DNA of 11,147 nt. It comes from Anaerolineales bacterium. GTDB lineage: Bacteria > Chloroflexota > Anaerolineae > Anaerolineales > UBA6663. Below are positions 2 to 11,147 of the stretch, one piece after another. How positions within the stretch are numbered: position 1 is the stretch's first letter; the number at the start of each line of letters is the position of its first letter. The notes beneath the pieces were generated by a model. The model was not told where the DNA came from and ran no database searches. It was given only the letters and a program-made list of their open reading frames with translations. The stretch is taken from assembly GCA_016789245.1 (NCBI GenBank), contig JAEURM010000042.1, forward strand, positions 1-11,147. The letters are read 5' to 3'. The position numbers were made by a program, and so were the translations under genes.

Positions 2-1987
2 CCCTCTCCAGAAACACTCCTCCAACTGCTCATTATTGGCCTCACCAATGGCGCGGTGATTGGGTTGAACGCTATTGCCGTCACGGTGATTTATGGCACG
101 GTGCGCACGCTGAACTTGGCTTACGGCGATGTAGTTGCGCTGACTACAATTGTGGTGACTTCACTGGTGAGCGCACTAGGTTTGAATGTGACGCTGGCGC
201 CACTGACTTTGGTAGGCGGTTTAGTGCTGACGCTGGCCGGTGGCGCACTGTTTGGCGGCGGGCTAAATCTATTGGTAGAACGCGCGGCGTTTGCTCCTTT
301 TAGGGGCCGTTCCAAAATGGCGCCGCTTATGGCCACGCTAGGGCTTTCATTTGTGTTCTATCAAATCTCGCTCCTCTGGCGCTACTTTTTGCCCAATTGG
401 TTGCCCGGCGAGCACCGCAGTGTGCCCGGCGTGCCAGAATTGCCGCGTGACCGCATCCCCGAACTTTTGCCCACTTACAATTTGCTGGGTGATTCACGCG
501 TGATACTGACGCCCAAAGAAGTGGCGGTGATGCTGATGGCACTGGCATGTGCGCTGGCCGTGTGGTGGTTTTTGCAGAGAACGCGCACGGGCCGCGCCAT
601 CCGCGCCATTTCTCAAAATGAAGAGTTGGCGCACATTGTGGGCGTGAATCCACCGGCCATTATCCGGCGGGCGTTTGTGTTGGGTGGCGCACTGGCGGGC
701 GTGGCGGCGTTTGTGTTTGCCGTGTATTACGCACGGCCCTTTGCCAACGCTGGTGCGCAAAGCGGGCTGATTGCGTTTGCGGCGGCCATTTTGGGTGGCA
801 TTGGCAACCCGGTGGGTGCGTTGCTGGCCGCGTTGTTGCTGGGCGTTGGCGCGGCGTTCAGTGATAGGTTTTTACTCACGCAATGGACGCCGGTGTTGAT
901 TCAAGCTTTGCTGATTGGGTTGCTGGTTCTGCGGCCCGGCGGCTTAGGGGGCGATAACGGCTCCGTGGCGGTGGGTTCAGAGCGGGATGCGGTGGCCATT
1001 ACGCCCAATGCTCAACGAAGCCGAACGGAATCCATTTGGCTCATGGTGGCCTTCACCGGTTTTCTTTTTTACCCAGTGCTTGACCAAGCGCTGGGTTGGT
1101 TCAAACTTTCTAGCATGACGAGCATTGGGATTTTTGTGGTGCTGGTGCTAGGCCTGAACATTTTATTGGGTTGGGCGGGTTTATTGAATTTGGGTTTTGC
1201 GGTGAGCTTTGGCATTGGCGGTTATGTGGCCGCCATCCTTGCCACGCAGGGCCGGGTGGAGTTTGGGTTGATTGTGCTGGCCAGCGCGGGCGCGGCGGGT
1301 TTGTTTGGGGCGCTCACTGGCCCGCTGACGCGCCGTTTGCGGAGTGATGAAGTGGCGATTGTGACGTTGGCGTTGGGAACGCTGGCGCGGCAAACCATTG
1401 TGAACTTGAGCAACTTGGCGGGCGATGGCGGAAGCATTGCGGCTGTGCCAGCGCCAGTGCTCTTTGGGTTTTCGCTCAGCACGCCGCAGGCGCGTTATTA
1501 CTTGGTGGTGGCCGTGATATTAGTTGCCGTGTTGGCTAGTTGGCGTTTACTGCGCTCACGGGTGGGGCGGGCGTGGCGCGCCAGCAGTGAAGATGAAGTG
1601 GCCGCGCAAAGTGTGGGCGTGAATGTGGGCCATTACCGCGCCTTGGCTTTGGTGGTGAGCGCGGGGTTGGCGGGCGTGGCAGGCGCGTTGTATGCCAGTA
1701 CGTTTACGTATATTGATGCGGATGCAGTAGATTTTAGAATCTCAGCCATGGCGCTGGCGATGGTGATTTTGGGCGGCGCGGGCAGTGTGCCGGGCGCGGT
1801 GCTGGGCACGGTTTTGCTGGCTTCGTATGATCAGATTTTTATTCCAGCGTTAGGCGCGTTATTGGCGCAGTGGCAAGCGGGGGATGTGCGGTTTGGCTCC
1901 GCGTTGGATGCGCGCGGGTTGAGCTATCTCAACTTTGGCTTGGCGTTATACCTCACCGTGCTTCTGCGCGCCCGCCGGCGAAGTTAA
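2..1987 (+). CDS. Fused LivH-LivM branched-chain amino-acid ABC transporter permease (5' end cut by window)
   Basis: Inner-membrane permease of a HAAT-family ABC importer for branched-chain or related amino acids. The frame is open from base 2, and its first residues (LLQLLIIGLTNGAVIGLNAI) match the first helix of LivH. The GTG at 56 is therefore internal and the true start lies left of the window. Counting from that GTG, residues 1-300 are LivH-like, with an early RTLNLAYGD segment and a GRAIRAISQNEELAHIVGVN loop at 179-198 that contacts the ATPase. A polar linker spans about 300-325. Residues 326-643 are LivM-like, with LGLNILLGWAGLLNLG at 365-380 and a second ATPase-contact loop at 504-523. 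LivH and LivM are usually separate proteins of about 300 residues each; here one chain would supply both halves of the channel. No ATPase (LivG/LivF) or binding protein follows, so these must lie upstream or elsewhere. The assignment is firm; the substrate is inferred. Confidence 0.92.
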   Translation, partial: PSPETLLQLLIIGLTNGAVIGLNAIAVTVIYGTVRTLNLAYGDVVALTTIVVTSLVSALGLNVTLAPLTLVGGLVLTLAGGALFGGGLNLLVERAAFAPFRGRSKMAPLMATLGLSFVFYQISLLWRYFLPNWLPGEHRSVPGVPELPRDRIPELLPTYNLLGDSRVILTPKEVAVMLMALACALAVWWFLQRTRTGRAIRAISQNEELAHIVGVNPPAIIRRAFVLGGALAGVAAFVFAVYYARPFANAGAQSGLIAFAAAILGGIGNPVGALLAALLLGVGAAFSDRFLLTQWTPVLIQALLIGLLVLRPGGLGGDNGSVAVGSERDAVAITPNAQRSRTESIWLMVAFTGFLFYPVLDQALGWFKLSSMTSIGIFVVLVLGLNILLGWAGLLNLGFAVSFGIGGYVAAILATQGRVEFGLIVLASAGAAGLFGALTGPLTRRLRSDEVAIVTLALGTLARQTIVNLSNLAGDGGSIAAVPAPVLFGFSLSTPQARYYLVVAVILVAVLASWRLLRSRVGRAWRASSEDEVAAQSVGVNVGHYRALALVVSAGLAGVAGALYASTFTYIDADAVDFRISAMALAMVILGGAGSVPGAVLGTVLLASYDQIFIPALGALLAQWQAGDVRFGSALDARGLSYLNFGLALYLTVLLRARRRS

Positions 1988-2173
1988 CCACGAGGGACAC
2001 GAAGTTTTTTTTGGAGGGATGTGGATTGATGTGTAAGCCGTCATTCCCGCGAGAGCGGGAATCTAACTCTATGCGATGGACACCCGCTTTTGCGGGTGTG
2101 ACGAAGACTTTGATTTAGCCGCAATCAGATTTTGATTTCGTGAAATTCGCGCAATTCGATGCTAAAAGGTTAA
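1984..2173. repeat. 190-bp spacer element bounded by inverted TTAACC ends
   Basis: The whole spacer between two convergent genes is bounded by TTAACC at 1984-1989 and its complement GGTTAA at 2168-2173. The left end continues with 9-base periodic units (CCACGAGGG, ACACGAAGT at 1988-2005). The right end carries three units starting TTCG at 2137-2163, and CACGAAG at 1998-2004 nearly complements TTTCGTG at 2136-2142. The TAA stop codons of both flanking genes fall inside the TTAACC ends. A two-hairpin unit sits in the middle. It resembles intergenic MITE/REP-like sequence. Calling it one composite element is inference. Confidence 0.5.
2039..2103. repeat. Two-hairpin REP-like palindromic unit
   Basis: The unit is bounded by CGTCA at 2039-2043 and TGACG at 2099-2103. 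The first hairpin pairs ATTCCCGC (2043-2050) with GCGGGAAT (2055-2062) around a GAGA loop. The second pairs ACACCCGC (2080-2087) with GCGGGTGT (2092-2099) around TTTT. The two ends are inverted copies of each other with two mismatches over 12 bases. This is the widespread 'attcccgc-n-gcgggaat' type of dispersed bacterial repeat. It lies just past the 3' ends of both convergent genes and could stop transcription or protect mRNA ends from both sides, but neither hairpin is followed by a run of T. Confidence 0.75.
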
Positions 2174-2709
2174 GGGAGAACCCACAACTCCGGCTCGGCC
2201 AGTTGCACAGTGATGTGGGCTTGCTTGAGTTTATCGTTCCGGTCAGCTTCTAGGCTCAACACAATAAATTCGGCGAGGGCGCGCGTATCATGCGGGCCAA
2301 CGGTAACGGCCGTGAACTTGCTGGGTGAGCCGTCTTGCAAATCGGGCGGCCTGAGCAATAAATCGCGCCCCACTTCTAACAAGGTTTCTAGTGGGCAGGT
2401 AAAGGCCGGCACAAAAAAGCGGCGCGGCACGCTCCAAAACTCTTGTGCGTGGCGGCTCTCATTGCCGCTGTACGTTTCCCGTTGCAAATTCACCTTGCCC
2501 TGCGCCACCCAAAACGGGCGGCCATGCACCTGTGGGTTTAGGCGGGCGCTGTAATGAATGGTGTGCGGGTCTAAACCATCCAGCGTGGCGTTAAGGTGCC
2601 AGCCAGCCCCGCACTGCTCACAGCGCCACGCCATTTCATCTGGGTAAGCGGGGAGCATGGTTTGGCATTGGCCGCACACCAGCGGCGCTAAACGGATTGC
2701 ATCAGTCAT
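2170..2709 (-). CDS. Zinc-ribbon protein of unknown function, soluble member of a three-gene cassette
   Basis: No function is recognised. The 179-residue product has an N-terminal zinc ribbon with Cys12, Cys15, Cys30 and Cys33 (C-X2-C-X14-C-X2-C), the same spacing as in the two upstream genes. After it come a GRPFWVAQGKV segment (63-73) and an RRFFVPAFTCPLETL segment (96-110). These resemble the PFWTLWGRV and GYVPLKL segments of the neighbouring 349-residue protein, so this looks like a shortened paralogue lacking the C-terminal membrane part. No signal peptide or membrane helix is apparent. The ATG at 2709 lies 3 bases after the upstream stop codon, which implies co-transcription and probably translational coupling. 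Its stop codon lies in the inverted TTAACC end of the 190-bp spacer element. It may assist the two membrane-bound paralogues. Confidence 0.8.
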   Translation of the reverse strand: MTDAIRLAPLVCGQCQTMLPAYPDEMAWRCEQCGAGWHLNATLDGLDPHTIHYSARLNPQVHGRPFWVAQGKVNLQRETYSGNESRHAQEFWSVPRRFFVPAFTCPLETLLEVGRDLLLRPPDLQDGSPSKFTAVTVGPHDTRALAEFIVLSLEADRNDKLKQAHITVQLAEPELWVLP

Positions 2710-2712
2710 AGC

Positions 2713-3762
2713 TTATTTCACCCACTTTGTGACTTGCTCCACGGCGTTGCTTATATTCATATTGCTCAGCATATCTTTCTTCTCGGCGCCATATTTCTGG
2801 AATTCGTACACTTCACCGTAGCGGAAACCGGTGTAGCCACCAAACATCATGACCGCGCCAACCACAAAGGCAATCAGCGCGCCCACCAGCAAACCCTCGC
2901 CATCATCACCCCGGGCGTTGGCGGCAAAGTACAACAGCAAGAGTGGGCCGTTGACGGCGAGGAATGCACCTACCGCCATGCCCGCCAACAAAATAAAAGC
3001 GCGGTACCACGTGTTGCCGGGCGCGCGGCCATAAATCACTTCGCCGGAGTAACCATCCACTACCATTTGGTAGGCGCGGCCCCGATACAAATAGCGCAGA
3101 ACCCACAACGGGTAGTACACCAAGCCCAACCGCTGATTGACCATGCGGGTGAAGGTTTGAGAAATTCGGTCTAATTTGCCTTGGCGTTGTACTCGGTTAG
3201 AAAAATAAGCGGAAGCGGTAGATTGTGCTTCGCTCTGTGAGGTCACCGGCTCAAACACTAAACCATTAGCGTGCAAAGCTTCGCCGTCAAACGCTTGCAG
3301 TTCATGCGGCTGAAGTTTGAGCGGCACGTAGCCCACGCCAAACTCGCTTACATCACAGGCCGGGCCAGTCCACACCATATCTTCGGCAATTTTGCGCTCG
3401 CGGGCCTCCCAGCGTCTGTTCTTGCTACTGCCCACCTGCTCTTGCCCAAACACCCAGCCCAGCACGCGCCCCCACAACGTCCAAAACGGCACGTAAGCCA
3501 AAAACAATTCGCTCACTTGCGCTTGAGAGCGGGCGTTGAAGGCAATGGCCCAATCTTTGCCGAGAAATTCTTTGAGTTTGCCGTTGGCCGCTTGCACATC
3601 GGTGCGGTGCGCCAGTTGGTAGCGGCGCACACCGCGCTCGCCCGTTACTAAACCGCGCATATCGCAGAACGGGCAGATGACCACCGCTTGCCCTTCCGGG
3701 ATGTTCACGGTTCCGCCACAGCGCGGGCAATTGAGACCTTGAGTGGTTTGTAAATCAGTCAT
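2713..3762 (-). CDS. Zinc-ribbon membrane protein of unknown function (larger paralogue)
   Basis: No function is recognised. ATG at 3762 gives 349 residues. A GTG at 3786 would add 8, but it lies in a palindromic repeat, so the ATG is preferred. The N-terminal zinc ribbon uses Cys12, Cys15, Cys30 and Cys33. A YVPFWTLWGRVLGWVFG segment follows at about 90-106, then FGVGYVPLKLQ at about 141-151. YYPLWVLRYLYRGRAY at 216-231 leads into VDGYSGEVIYG, a pattern resembling TFIIB-type zinc-ribbon membrane proteins of other bacteria. Two membrane helices lie at about 254-282 and 291-314, followed by a charged tail, so it is probably anchored with the ribbon on one face of the inner membrane. It matches the upstream 268-residue protein segment by segment, which suggests a duplication. 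The topology is inferred. Confidence 0.85.
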   Translation of the reverse strand: MTDLQTTQGLNCPRCGGTVNIPEGQAVVICPFCDMRGLVTGERGVRRYQLAHRTDVQAANGKLKEFLGKDWAIAFNARSQAQVSELFLAYVPFWTLWGRVLGWVFGQEQVGSSKNRRWEARERKIAEDMVWTGPACDVSEFGVGYVPLKLQPHELQAFDGEALHANGLVFEPVTSQSEAQSTASAYFSNRVQRQGKLDRISQTFTRMVNQRLGLVYYPLWVLRYLYRGRAYQMVVDGYSGEVIYGRAPGNTWYRAFILLAGMAVGAFLAVNGPLLLLYFAANARGDDGEGLLVGALIAFVVGAVMMFGGYTGFRYGEVYEFQKYGAEKKDMLSNMNISNAVEQVTKWVK

Positions 3763-3785
3763 TTCAACCGTTGTTTTGAGTGTCA

Positions 3786-3848
3786 CGTGTCAAAGTGTCA
3801 GGTGTCAGTCTATGCGGAGGACACTCGACACTTTGACACTTCGACACC
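3786..3848. repeat. GTGTCA-type palindromic repeat in the zinc-ribbon cassette
   Basis: GTGTCAAAGTGTC at 3787-3799 is the exact reverse complement of GACACTTTGACAC at 3827-3839. Further copies extend it: GTGTCA starts at 3787, 3795 and 3802, and GACAC starts at 3827, 3835 and 3843, so both arms are short tandem repeats with a 7-8 base period. The 27-base centre is unpaired. It occupies most of the spacer between the first two cassette genes and could form a long hairpin in their shared mRNA. Confidence 0.75.
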
Positions 3849-3872
3849 CGATACCCATTACCGCCACTAGAT

Positions 3873-4679
3873 TTAGACTTTCGCCGCTACCCACGCCGCA
3901 AAGCCAAACAAAACTGGAGCGGCCAAGCATCCCAAACCGGAGCAGAGGGCGAGGCCGGCCATATAACTCTCTTCACCGTTGCCCACCAACCCGGCAATGA
4001 GCGGGATAAAGGCCAGCACCACAAACACTGCCGCCGTCGCACAGCCGGCCAGCATATACGGCGCTTCGGCTTTGGCGGGGAACACGTTGGCAAACACTTT
4101 GCCGGTGGCGGCTTCTACTAACGCGGTGAAGGTTTTATTGTTGAACGTGTACTTGAAGGTGTAGAGCGGTATATGCACTAAAGCATTCTCGGCGAGTTGT
4201 TGCGCCGTGATGCCCCGCCCGGCCAGCCAACCCTGTGCAGTTTCCAGCGGCACACTGGGCGCATGGGCTTGTGAATCCAGCGCCGAATCATATTTTTGCA
4301 AATCACCAGCGGGCAGTTGCAGTTTGCGCAGTTCACTCACGGAGGTGGCCGCCGCTGGCTCTAACAGCACTTCTTCTTTGTTGCCTGTTTTGCGTTTGAA
4401 GTACCACAACGGGAAGTATTCAAAAGTTTGTTGGGTGATTTGCGATTTTTTATCTAAGTCTTTGACGGTAGCATTGCCCGCCATCCATTGGGCCAGCAGA
4501 GCGCGGGCTTTGTTGATATCTACCGTGGGCGCAAGGGAGTAGTGAAAAACGACGCGCGTTTTATCTAAGTACACCGTGCTTCGGCAGTTGGCACACGTGA
4601 CGAAGCGCTGACCTTCATCTGGGTGAAGCTCTGAACCACATTGCGTACAGCGGAGTTGCGAGGCGGGGAGGGAAGACAT
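3873..4679 (-). CDS. Zinc-ribbon membrane protein of unknown function (first gene of cassette)
   Basis: No function is recognised. ATG at 4679 (MSSLPASQ) gives 268 residues. The frame also contains an ATG at 4742, but the 21 extra residues would precede the ribbon with no family-like content, so the inner start is preferred. Neither start has a clear ribosome-binding site. The zinc ribbon uses Cys11, Cys14, Cys29 and Cys32, again C-X2-C-X14-C-X2-C. Further on are FEYFPLWYFKR at about 87-97, LQLPAGDLQKYDSAL at about 120-134, and VHIPLYTFKYTF at about 168-179 leading into a VEAATGKVFANVFP segment. These parallel segments of the next gene. Two membrane helices lie near 208-231 and 239-265, at the very C-terminus. 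The gene heads the minus-strand cassette, 110 bases upstream of the next start. Confidence 0.82.
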   Translation of the reverse strand: MSSLPASQLRCTQCGSELHPDEGQRFVTCANCRSTVYLDKTRVVFHYSLAPTVDINKARALLAQWMAGNATVKDLDKKSQITQQTFEYFPLWYFKRKTGNKEEVLLEPAAATSVSELRKLQLPAGDLQKYDSALDSQAHAPSVPLETAQGWLAGRGITAQQLAENALVHIPLYTFKYTFNNKTFTALVEAATGKVFANVFPAKAEAPYMLAGCATAAVFVVLAFIPLIAGLVGNGEESYMAGLALCSGLGCLAAPVLFGFAAWVAAKV

Positions 4680-4773
4680 ACGATAAACAGATAAATGGCT
4701 GGTGCGAATTAGGCCGATTTGTAATGAAACACCTAACCTCATTTACGGAAATTGCCGGGTGCGGGTTTCGCGC

Positions 4774-7671: not shown

Positions 7672-8727
7672 TTAATCTTTGTAGCGGTTAAGGCTCTCGC
7701 GGATGCGGTCATCAAGCGGCGTGGTGGGGTGAATGGATTTACGGGGCCGAGGTGGGGGCGGGTTGATGAAATTGTAGACGCTATCAAACCAAGCGGTAAA
7801 GATGAGCAACCACGGTTTGGGGCGGGGAATAGCGCCCAACGCCTGCTCTTGGGTAATGAGGAGCATAGAAAGCGCCAAAAACGCCGCACCCAACCATTGC
7901 CAGCCGGTGAACGTTTCGTTGAGTAGGAAGATGGCGGCCAGAATGGTAACAAAGGCTTCGCTCAGATTGAGCAAAACGGCCTGCATGCCGCCCAACTGTT
8001 TGACGCCGACGAACAGCGTGATGCGGGCCGTGATGGTGACGAGCGTGAGCAGAAGCACCGGCGTCCAAGTAGCGGGCGTGGTGGGCAGGGGCGGCATCCC
8101 ATTAAAAACGTAGGCGATAAACACCGTGGCCGCCATGCCACTCAGCGTGTAGAGCGTCACCGTGGGAGCGGGCGCGTCATACAATGTGCGCTGATTAATC
8201 CAAATATGTAGGCCGTACATTGCGCCAGCCGCGATCATGGCGAGTGCGGCTAGCCAATTGGCGTTGCCCGGGTCTGACCATTTGAGCAGAAACACGGCCA
8301 CCAGCGCCAACCCCAGCCGCACCAACGTGAGGCGCGAAAGGCGGTAGCCATCCAGCCAAGAGAACAAAGTGAGGAAAACTAGATACAGCGTGAACAGCAG
8401 TTGGCTGAGCGAGGCGTTGAGCGTTTTAAGGCTGTTGTAAAACAACAGCGAGCCGAGGCCATTGATGATGCCGGCCACCAAACACGAGATAAAGGCGAAC
8501 GGATAAATGTAGATGTATTTGCGAAAGAACAACAGATAAATCAGCCATAAAACCCCCACTGCGCCGACCGTGCGCAACATCACCACCGTAAACGGCTCCA
8601 ACCCAGCTTCAAAGGCTTGTTTGCCAAAGATGGGCACAAAGCCAGACGCCACCGCCGAAAGCAAAGCCGCCACAATGCCTTGGGCTTGCGCCGATGACCA
8701 ACGGGAGGGTGGGGAATTCTCGCTCAT
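7672..8727 (-). CDS. EamA-family (DMT superfamily) inner-membrane transporter
   Basis: A 351-residue protein with about 10 membrane helices in two EamA repeats, at roughly 17-149 and 158-292. Repeat 1 begins ALLSAVASGFVPIFGKQAF. Repeat 2 ends with LLNETFTGWQWLGAAFLALS, matching the usual LxE-x(n)-G pattern before the last helix of EamA proteins. Members are metabolite or amino-acid exporters or importers; the substrate cannot be told here. Beyond the last helix is an unusual tail of about 60 residues (293-351) with a proline stretch at 323-328 and many charged residues. EamA proteins are commonly about 300 residues, so the tail is an addition. The ATG at 8727 has no ribosome-binding site and sits 13 bases from a palindromic repeat. 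It lies downstream of the PLP-enzyme-REC gene, so a role in exporting an amino acid is possible but only suggested by position. Confidence 0.87.
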   Translation of the reverse strand: MSENSPPSRWSSAQAQGIVAALLSAVASGFVPIFGKQAFEAGLEPFTVVMLRTVGAVGVLWLIYLLFFRKYIYIYPFAFISCLVAGIINGLGSLLFYNSLKTLNASLSQLLFTLYLVFLTLFSWLDGYRLSRLTLVRLGLALVAVFLLKWSDPGNANWLAALAMIAAGAMYGLHIWINQRTLYDAPAPTVTLYTLSGMAATVFIAYVFNGMPPLPTTPATWTPVLLLTLVTITARITLFVGVKQLGGMQAVLLNLSEAFVTILAAIFLLNETFTGWQWLGAAFLALSMLLITQEQALGAIPRPKPWLLIFTAWFDSVYNFINPPPPRPRKSIHPTTPLDDRIRESLNRYKD

Positions 8728-8740
8728 GACTGACAGATAT

Positions 8741-8805
8741 CAAGCACCCTGAGCTTGTCGAAGGGTGCGAACTCGGCCAAAAACGGCATACTTCGACAGG
8801 CTCAG
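8741..8805. repeat. CTGAGC-TGTCGAAG palindromic dispersed-type repeat
   Basis: CTGAGCTTGTCGAAG at 8749-8763 and CTTCGACAGGCTCAG at 8791-8805 are inverted copies with one mismatch in 15. Nested in it, GCACCCT (8744-8750) pairs perfectly with AGGGTGC (8762-8768). This sequence type is a familiar dispersed intergenic repeat in many bacterial genomes. It occupies half of the spacer between the PLP-enzyme-REC gene and the EamA transporter gene and could end or attenuate transcription between them, although no T-run follows. Confidence 0.75.
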
Positions 8806-8852
8806 CATGCCTGTGCATCGGATTTGGATCTTCTAGAAATAAGTCCTTAAAA

Positions 8853-10550
8853 TCAATTCAACATCTTATTCACATCGTCTAACAAATCATCATTCAAGAA
8901 CGAGCCTTTTTGGAGCAAGGAGTTGGCTTGCCCATCCAGCCGCGCCCGTTCATCCGGTGAGAGCGTTTTGGCCGTCACCACAATCACCGGAATTTCGTGC
9001 GTAACTGGGTCGGAGCGCATGGCGTCCAGCACGGCAAAACCATCCACTTCCGGCATCATCAAATCTAAAATCACCAAATCTGGCGTTTTGGCGCGGATGA
9101 GTTCCAAACCGGCGCGACCATCGTTGGCTTCGTACACGGTGTACTCGCCTTTGGCTTGCAAGATGCGGCGGATGAGCCGGACGGCATCAGGCGTGTCATC
9201 AATAATGGCAATGGAGCGCACGCGTTCATCCAAACGTTCTAGTGCGGCCAATAAGCCTTCTGGCTCTGGTTGGGCCGGGGTGGTAGTGGCTTCCGCTTCA
9301 CCAAATTCTTGCGCCCAACCTTCACCCAAAATTTCACTTTGCACGGGGAAGGTGTGGCCGGTGCAGGCCATCACAATGGTTTCATCCGGCCGGATTAAGT
9401 TTTGGTGCACCAGTTTGAACAATCCGGCAAACGCGGCGGCCGCGCCCGGCTCCATGCTTAAGCCTTCCATTTTGGCCATCACGTGCATGGCGCGGAACAC
9501 TTCATCATCCGTCACGGCTTCCATGGCGCCACCATGTTCCAAAATGTACGCGCGTAAAAGTTGGTAAGCGCGGCCCGGGTTGCCGGTGGCCAACGTGCCA
9601 ATGCGGGTGCGTGGTATAGCTACAATCTCAGCATGGTCTTGTGATTTTTTGAAGGCGGTCACCATCGGGGCACACCCTTCGGCTTGGATGCAGGCCAGCT
9701 TGGGCATCCGGTCAATCAGTCCCATCTCGTACAACTCCCGGAAACCTTTCATGGCACCCACTGGCCCCAAGCCGCCGCTAACGGATTGCACATACCAATC
9801 GGGTGCACGCCACGGCGCGGTGTGGCCTTGCCCGTTGGCTTTGGCGGTGAGTGGCTCAGTCGGCATTTGCCGGGCTAACTGCTCGGCAATCTCAAACGCC
9901 ATTGTTTTCATGCTCTCCACAGAAGCAATGCTCCGTAGGCCACGGTCATAATACATGCCGCGCTGGCGCGCAAACTCTTGCGCCAATTCTTTGGATTTAT
10001 CGTAAGTGGTGGTGACTTTGATAACTTGCGCACCGTACAACGCGCACTCGCGCATTTTTTCTGGCGGCACAAGAGAGGTGAGGAAGGCGTATAACTTAAT
10101 GCCCGCCCGCGCACAGTAGGCCGCATAGCTAATGGCCACATTGCCCGTGGAGGCCACCACGGCATCCGTAATGCCCGCTTCCTTCATCACGGAAACAGCC
10201 AACGCGGCTTGCCGGTCTTTGAAAGAGCCGGAGGGGTTTTGCCGTTCATCTTTGATGAAGATATTCGGGCGGCTCAACATCAGGCCGAGGTTGATGACGG
10301 GGAAGAGCGGCGTATTGCCTTCACCGATGGTGATGGCATGGGCTTGGTCACGCAACGGTAAAAGCTCATGGTAGCGCCATAGACCCGGATCTTTGCGGGT
10401 GTGCGCGCCGGAAAAGCTGGAAGCCGCGCTGGCGTAATCGTACTGTGCTTCCAGCCATTCGCTGTTACAGCGCGTACACTTCAATTGGTTAGGAGAAAAT
10501 GGGGCGCTCAAACCGCAATCCACGCACACCATTTGAATGTTACGGGGCAT
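8853..10550 (-). CDS. Threonine-synthase-like PLP enzyme fused to a response-regulator receiver domain
   Basis: A 565-residue fold-type II PLP enzyme with a C-terminal REC domain. An N-terminal zinc ribbon (Cys9, Cys12, Cys25, Cys28) is followed by the catalytic core at about 55-415: GEGNTPLFP at 76-84, NPSGSFKDR with PLP-binding Lys111, STGNVA at 134-139, SGGLGPVGA at 258-266, IQAEGCAPM at 288-296 and CTGHTFP at 396-402. This best fits threonine synthase, which makes threonine from O-phosphohomoserine. A Pro/Thr/Glu-rich linker (about 418-445) joins a complete REC domain (446-563) with acidic pair Asp451/Asp452, phosphoacceptor Asp496 (ILDLMMP), Thr526 and Lys548. The reading frame is continuous, with no in-frame Met between the enzyme and Met498, so the REC is unlikely to be made separately. 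PSG replaces the usual PTG before the lysine, and GHTFP replaces the usual GHGLKD, so substrate specificity is less certain than fold. Confidence 0.9.
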   Translation of the reverse strand: MPRNIQMVCVDCGLSAPFSPNQLKCTRCNSEWLEAQYDYASAASSFSGAHTRKDPGLWRYHELLPLRDQAHAITIGEGNTPLFPVINLGLMLSRPNIFIKDERQNPSGSFKDRQAALAVSVMKEAGITDAVVASTGNVAISYAAYCARAGIKLYAFLTSLVPPEKMRECALYGAQVIKVTTTYDKSKELAQEFARQRGMYYDRGLRSIASVESMKTMAFEIAEQLARQMPTEPLTAKANGQGHTAPWRAPDWYVQSVSGGLGPVGAMKGFRELYEMGLIDRMPKLACIQAEGCAPMVTAFKKSQDHAEIVAIPRTRIGTLATGNPGRAYQLLRAYILEHGGAMEAVTDDEVFRAMHVMAKMEGLSMEPGAAAAFAGLFKLVHQNLIRPDETIVMACTGHTFPVQSEILGEGWAQEFGEAEATTTPAQPEPEGLLAALERLDERVRSIAIIDDTPDAVRLIRRILQAKGEYTVYEANDGRAGLELIRAKTPDLVILDLMMPEVDGFAVLDAMRSDPVTHEIPVIVVTAKTLSPDERARLDGQANSLLQKGSFLNDDLLDDVNKMLN

Positions 10551-10624: not shown

Positions 10625-11147
10625 TTAATGCGCGCCGTTGGAGCCGTTGTTCTTGCGGCTGAGCACGCGTTCTAGAGCGCGGGTTAAATCGGTTTCCAAA
10701 ATTGGCTTAATCAAATAATCTGCCGCGCCCAACTGTTTAGCCCGTTCGCGCTCATCGGTAATGGTGCACATGATGACGGGGATGGCTTGGGTTTGCGGCG
10801 TGCGCTTGAGTTGGCGTAACACTTCCCAGCTATCTTGGCCCGGCATCACCATATCTAATAAAATGGCATCCGGATTAGTTGCCGCCGCGTGGCTGACAGC
10901 GCCTAAGTTGGCTTGTGTGCTCAAGAGTTGATAGCCGTTGGGCTCCAAGTAGCGCCGGTAAAGGTTCAACAAACCCGCCTGATCTTCAATCACTAGCACA
11001 CGGGGCGTTTCCGGCATTTCAGGCTCAGGAGTGGCGATGGGCGTTCCTAACGTGATTTCTGGCTCTGGCGCTTCTGGCGTGGCTGGCCGTTGATAGACGG
11101 GCAGGGTGAAATAGAACCGAGCGCCTTGGCCGAGCACGCCTTCGCTC
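10625..11147 (-). CDS. Hybrid sensor histidine kinase, C-terminal part with receiver domain (5' end cut by window)
   Basis: The frame is open at the right edge of the window. Its first visible residues, SEGVLGQGARFYFTLPV, are the final glycine-rich box and last strand of a histidine-kinase ATPase domain, so the GTG at 11137 is not a real start. A Pro/Glu-rich linker of about 30 residues follows, then a full REC domain starting PRVLVIEDQ. Counting from that GTG, it has the acidic pair Glu51/Asp52, phosphoacceptor Asp95 (ILLDMVMP), Thr125 and Lys144 (YLIKP). The protein ends about 10 residues past the REC with no output domain. It is therefore a hybrid kinase that passes phosphate through its own receiver. 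The sensor and dimerisation parts are outside the window. The next gene downstream, 74 bases away, also carries a REC domain and is a natural candidate partner. Confidence 0.9.
   Translation of the reverse strand, partial: SEGVLGQGARFYFTLPVYQRPATPEAPEPEITLGTPIATPEPEMPETPRVLVIEDQAGLLNLYRRYLEPNGYQLLSTQANLGAVSHAAATNPDAILLDMVMPGQDSWEVLRQLKRTPQTQAIPVIMCTITDERERAKQLGAADYLIKPILETDLTRALERVLSRKNNGSNGAH

Follow-up and report, generated by a model that had tools for sequence, protein, structure and literature searches.

Two-component systems usually act via DNA binding or second messengers. Here we describe a gene of an Anaerolineales bacterium, the product of which joins an enzyme domain dependent on pyridoxal phosphate (PLP) to a C-terminal receiver (REC) domain. 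The gene lies at 8853..10550 on the minus strand of a stretch of DNA of 11,147 nucleotides (nt) from contig JAEURM010000042.1, referred to as the window. The fusion recurs in independent genomes, with its cofactor site and its phosphorylation site intact. Because a histidine kinase is encoded directly upstream, and because the receiver of the enzyme is kin to the last receiver of such kinases, the fusion is most likely the enzymatic output of the kinase. It seems to us rather more probable than an even chance that the protein would be a response regulator with a PLP-dependent enzyme as its output, controlled by the upstream kinase through phosphorylation of Asp496.

The gene encodes 565 amino acids (aa) from an ATG start in a single open frame without internal stop, and homologous fusions exist. 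All its features are on the minus strand. The protein begins with a zinc ribbon (Cys9, Cys12, Cys25 and Cys28; 10467..10526), recognised by its conservation and by strands that the AlphaFold2 (AF2) model places within residues 6-36. This is followed by a PALP domain, i.e., a fold-type-II PLP enzyme (residues 73-398; 9357..10334; Pfam PF00291, 207.2 bits, cut-off 35), inside which lies the codon of the PLP lysine, Lys111 (10218-10220). The linker (residues 402-445; 9216..9347) consists of a disordered stretch, with a predicted local distance difference test score (pLDDT) below 50 at residues 413-430 of the AF2 model, and then a conserved segment, EGLLAALxRLDERVRS. The receiver domain (residues 447-550; 8901..9212; Pfam PF00072 Response_reg, 77.4 bits, cut-off 30.2) has the conserved residues of its family and includes the codon of the phospho-acceptor Asp496 (9063-9065). 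A Pfam scan of the protein gave PALP and Response_reg and no further output domain. The solved structures that best match the PALP domain are threonine synthases, in a structural matching that took in CapA-type enzymes (9k3c CapA2).

Residue conservation was determined in two overlapping sets, one consisting of the window protein and 120 listed homologues (121 sequences), the other of 90 fused open reading frames (ORFs) taken from genome loci. Lys111, Asp452 and Asp496 are each present in 121/121 sequences of the first set, in which Asn137 and the motifs STGN, SGG.GP and GHT are likewise invariant. The zinc-ribbon cysteines are present in 114, 116, 117 and 117 of the 121, the remainder being gaps. 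Position 451 is occupied by D (100) or E (21), position 526 by T (116), S (4) or a gap (1), and position 548 by K (120) or a gap (1). In the second set, K111, D452, D496 and K548 are each found in 90/90 ORFs. The fused receiver has the acidic pair, the phospho-Asp, the Thr/Ser and the Lys, and the cofactor site has the PALP score given above together with the invariant Lys111 and Asn137. Joint conservation of the PLP site and of the whole phosphorylation site is an argument for the use of both. A sequence-only reading of the window had described an uninterrupted frame with zinc ribbon, threonine-synthase-like PLP enzyme and complete REC domain, and had named Lys111, the zinc ribbon, Asp451, Asp452, Asp496, Thr526 and Lys548; the frame is open throughout its 565 codons, and all of these residues are there and conserved in the 121-sequence alignment.

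The same reading had raised a frameshift or misassembly near residues 418-445, which would make the fusion an artefact of annotation or assembly of two adjoining genes. Both Pfam domains are present in 120/120 of the homologues listed, out of at least 7712 matches at an expectation value, E, of up to 0.001. From a scan of genome contigs, the best 80 of 523 loci (numbered with an L) were taken for locus analysis: PALP and REC are in a single frame in 80/80, with L003 cut by the contig end, and the titles are those of Chloroflexota except for L044. The title of that contig is Blastopirellula marina, yet the locus is of the Chloroflexota type, perhaps being mislabelled or from a mixed bin. The most similar fetched locus (L001) has 75% identity to the window protein and L092 has 62%; the fused-ORF coordinates in L092 and L081 are from whole-genome search matches, not from a gene caller. 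L052 is Thermanaerothrix daxensis strain GNS-1, with its fusion protein encoded at 10781-12466. In the phylum of this species, near-whole-model matches were found in 42/400 genomes, with two copies in 14 of the 42. In its class, 143/396 sampled genomes had a match with E no higher than 1e-150, and even the weakest of their best matches reached 2.5e-196, among the matches listed. Of the plasmid records, 1237 matched, none of them covering 80% of the query at any one place. One database member (P0117, 844 aa) has one PALP domain followed by three receiver domains.

Unfused orthologues were sought with part of the window protein (301 residues), under a length rule that excludes full-length fusions, and the best 120 of 1812 matches were taken. 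Custom hidden Markov models (HMMs) found a REC domain in 108/120 of these; the other 12, inspected by eye, end shortly after the PALP domain or lose frame in the linker or REC domain. There was no clear unfused orthologue among these 120, some of which (e.g. P0128) are without contig data, so a true one is possible. Members shortened or out of frame in this way, such as the 12/120 lacking a REC match, are what an artefact would lead one to expect. Against this, there is one open frame in the window, in 80/80 loci and in full-length matches from many independent genomes, the exception being an internal TAA in one listed match of the class-genome search. As the fusion recurs in independent genomes, the artefact explanation is refuted, and its probability is negligible. 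The search for PALP followed by Response_reg, which had been proposed as a check, reveals a recurring fusion in homologues, in Chloroflexota loci and in phylum and class genomes.

Directly upstream, and in the same direction, is the 3′ end of a gene that is cut by the window edge (10625..11146, minus strand) and stops 74 nt short of the fusion gene. It has a C-terminal REC domain (10673-10999; Pfam Response_reg, 69.6 bits), and its visible part includes GQGARFYFTLP, by eye the final motif of the ATPase of a histidine kinase. This gene probably encodes a GAF-containing histidine kinase, the kinase part being judged from the motif and from relatives. In the relatives, the upstream candidate was taken to be the longest ORF that is on the same strand and ends close to the fusion, and was present in 72/80 loci; in seven of the remaining eight the contig begins no more than 370 nt away, and in L009, which has 9.7 kb there, no ORF fell inside the distance limits. 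By custom HMMs, 55 of the 72 ORFs have a kinase followed by two REC domains, 5 a kinase and one REC domain, 6 a kinase only (L008, L012, L017, L027, L051 and L080), 4 are REC-only ends (L023, L045, L067 and L071) and 2 have neither. A kinase match in 66/72 is what a probable cognate kinase should give. Pfam, applied to the ends of these ORFs (up to 690 aa), found HisKA in 62, HATPase_c in 63, Response_reg in 65 and GAF families in 57-59 (GAF_2 in 59); of seven full-length kinases scanned, five have 3 to 5 GAF stretches, and those of L028 and L082 have one. Over the 70 loci with an upstream kinase or REC domain, the gap to the fusion has a median of 21.5 nt, and it is at most 150 nt in 66/70. 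As local background, of the 471 other ORFs in the same loci that are 150 aa or longer, the kinase HMM matches 61; kinase adjacency far exceeds this rate, which is itself high.

The kinship of the receivers was examined in a midpoint-rooted tree. It was built from 163 of the 315 REC domains extracted, namely the named ones and a random choice of at most 28 rows per class, and has few columns and many unresolved forks. In this tree, 31 enzyme RECs, 28 second kinase receivers (REC2) and five others form one 64-row group (100/99), apart from the first kinase receivers (REC1) and the other sampled RECs; inside it, 7 REC2 rows join the enzyme RECs (88/88), while another 20 stand apart from them. The REC domain of the window's kinase falls among the REC1 domains of the upstream kinases (100/100). 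The consensus of the enzyme REC and of REC2 has Lys-Gly, whereas that of REC1 has Lys-Pro. By these comparisons, the closest kin of the enzyme's receiver is the last receiver (REC2) of the upstream kinases. The simplest history would be that a receiver was exchanged or duplicated between the kinase and the enzyme, in either direction, and the kinship suits a shared phosphodonor.

If the fusion is the output of this kinase, the following sequence of events can be envisaged. The GAF-containing histidine kinase, mostly a hybrid, would sense an intracellular cue, autophosphorylate and then transfer the phosphate, either directly or via its own REC domains, to Asp496 of the fused receiver. Phosphorylation would alter the packing of the receiver against the PLP domain, or dimerisation, across the flexible linker, and thereby set activity. 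The PLP domain would act on an amino-acid-like substrate, and its product, or a related compound, may leave through the EamA-family (drug/metabolite) transporter encoded next (351 aa; 7672..8727, minus strand; Pfam EamA, 80.7 bits; gap 125 nt). Several points weigh against such a scheme: the linker is predicted to be disordered and the AF2 model does not support a contact between the domains; conservation of the lysine is by itself no proof of catalysis, as PLP-binding sensors can retain it; the window's own kinase is visible at its end only; L015 and L078 (2/72 loci) have no kinase or REC domain upstream in the HMM scan; the kinase background of 61/471 is high, the neighbourhood being rich in signalling genes regardless; and the enzyme RECs and REC2s are intermingled, rather than forming two clean sister clades, in a tree of few columns.

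The PLP domain could, alternatively, be a ligand sensor, such that binding of an amino acid or PLP alters the receiver, which would serve the neighbouring kinase as a phosphate sink or adaptor. This would agree with a locus of which the rest is mostly signalling genes, with the nearness of the enzyme's REC to the kinase's own REC2 and with the altered residues presumed to bind the substrate phosphate in threonine synthase (ThrC). There is also a precedent in the MocR/GabR regulators, which retain an aminotransferase-like PLP domain as a sensor. However, those regulators join that domain to a DNA-binding winged helix-turn-helix, whereas Pfam finds only PALP and Response_reg in the fusion and no other output domain, and the invariance of Lys111, Asn137, STGN, SGG.GP and GHT in 121 sequences is the expectation for catalysis. 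A sensor is, in our view, unlikely. A further alternative is an ordinary threonine synthase, the activity of which is tuned by phosphorylation. The fusion does resemble ThrC (EC 4.2.3.1; TIGR00260) in its fold-type-II PLP fold, its PLP lysine in a GSFKDR motif, its STGN loop and its TGH motif, and is 35% identical to Thermus ThrC across 317 aligned residues; it differs in its C-terminal REC domain and in having SGGLGP where ThrC has VGNAGN. The window protein misses the cut-offs of TIGR00260 (150.2 < 167.1) and NF006050 (255.4 < 303), and the fused copies of L052 and L082 are likewise below the ThrC cut-offs. Opposite Asn154, Ser155 and Arg160 of Tt ThrC, which we take to be the residues for the phosphate of O-phosphohomoserine, the window protein has R203, G204 and S210 in three alignments; in the fused copies, residue 203 is R, or M, K and others, Gly204 is invariant and residue 210 is mostly S, A or T. 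In T. daxensis, a second ThrC (300.6 bits) overlaps thrB (229.4 bits), so that the fusion is not the copy at thrB, and other ORFs above the thrC cut-off are present in 8/8 genomes examined, one being beside thrB. The missed cut-offs, the changed phosphate residues, the other thrC ORFs and the ThrC at thrB disfavour a housekeeping threonine synthase, and a phosphorylation-tuned one is decidedly improbable.

Cysteate synthase was also considered and rejected (TIGR03844, 99.1 < 324.9 cut-off). The members of NF006050 (PRK08197, named threonine synthase), which are zinc-ribbon PALP enzymes, have the same N-terminal zinc ribbon and PALP domain but no REC domain, and are 27-34% identical to the fused copies with which they were compared (L081, L082 and L086). 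Because the cut-offs are missed, the presumed phosphate residues are changed and T. daxensis has a ThrC beside thrB, the label of threonine synthase is doubtful; the substrate is probably amino-acid-like, but not O-phosphohomoserine. Of what the sequence-only reading had proposed, a PLP-enzyme domain as receiver output is supported, the upstream kinase and its closely related REC domain being added context, whereas the threonine-synthase identity, and with it control of threonine supply, is not supported.

Downstream of the fusion, the genes scanned in the relatives (n = 72) include EamA (45) and REC-HisKA-HATPase (22) genes. The order in L001 is that of the window: MASE11-GAF5-HisKA-HATPase-REC, PALP-REC, EamA. 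In L092 it is GAF3-HisKA-HATPase-REC, PALP-REC, EamA, followed on the opposite strand by REC-Trans_reg_C and REC-GAF-kinase genes. Of the 43 loci whose downstream DNA extends for 4.5 kb or more, 20 have a second REC-kinase and a REC protein of 200-300 aa on the opposite strand. The REC protein of L092 was scanned and is of the transcription-factor type (REC-Trans_reg_C); the Trans_reg_C protein neighbouring the L052 fusion gave no REC match in the scan. L081, L082, L083, L089, L090 and L091 contain a second paralog, with a kinase before it and a lone REC protein after it. Its operon in L082 (8783-11996) and L081 (7803-11067) comprises kinase, PALP-REC, a stand-alone REC protein of ~127 aa and an unfused zinc-ribbon PALP, which in L082 is a member of NF006050 (564.6 bits). 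Another zinc-ribbon ThrC-like PALP (417-422 aa) is found in L087 (6137-7390) and L094 (6674-7942), close to one ORF that by eye resembles glycosyltransferases and to another, of ~490 aa, that matches PALP weakly.

In the window, the gap between the fusion and EamA genes (8728-8852) holds a palindrome-like repeat, ccctgagcttgtcgaaggg / cttcgacaggctcag, seen by eye. A frame of 661 aa, open at the window edge (2-1987, plus strand), combines a LivH-like and a LivM-like domain, both of the branched-chain amino-acid ABC permease type. Three adjoining ORFs of 179, 357 and 289 aa (2170-4742, minus strand) have, by eye, CxxC pairs close to the N-terminus and match no Pfam family above its cut-off. A 20-nt inverted repeat with a 13-nt spacer (3787-3839) is just upstream of the 357-aa ORF.

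Receivers joined to metabolic enzymes are noted as a class in bacteria and archaea, with narrow distributions in archaea, in the part of PMC5847659 consulted. The present fusion is like those response regulators in joining a REC domain to a metabolic-type enzyme; unlike those in that part of the source, it has a PLP enzyme and a C-terminal REC domain, is common in its class and is linked with a kinase whose own REC domain is closely related. Among the listed titles and starts of abstracts of open-access papers, no description of a receiver fused to PALP or threonine synthase was found. Receivers with metabolic-enzyme outputs are known; PALP as the output is apparently new. The alpha-hydroxyketone loci Lqs of Legionella and Cqs of Vibrio also encode together a PLP enzyme, a sensor kinase and (Lqs) a receiver protein; according to the portion of PMC3376566 consulted, CqsA/LqsA differ in being aminotransferase-related, separate from the receiver protein and makers of a known signal. 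The present locus might itself be a small-molecule signalling device, in which a kinase-gated PLP enzyme makes an amino-acid-derived messenger, EamA exports it and the GAF kinase senses the messenger or the state calling for it. Although this is a long shot, such a locus would be a convergent counterpart of the Lqs/Cqs loci, with the synthase itself as the response regulator.

For annotation, the label "threonine synthase" on PALP-REC proteins is probably wrong. If the fusion is the enzymatic output of its kinase, a PLP enzyme would be the direct output of a receiver, and a cue could set metabolite flux within one phosphotransfer. T. daxensis GNS-1 is a named strain carrying the system. The findings suggest that many Chloroflexota adjust a small-molecule reaction directly, rather than via genes.
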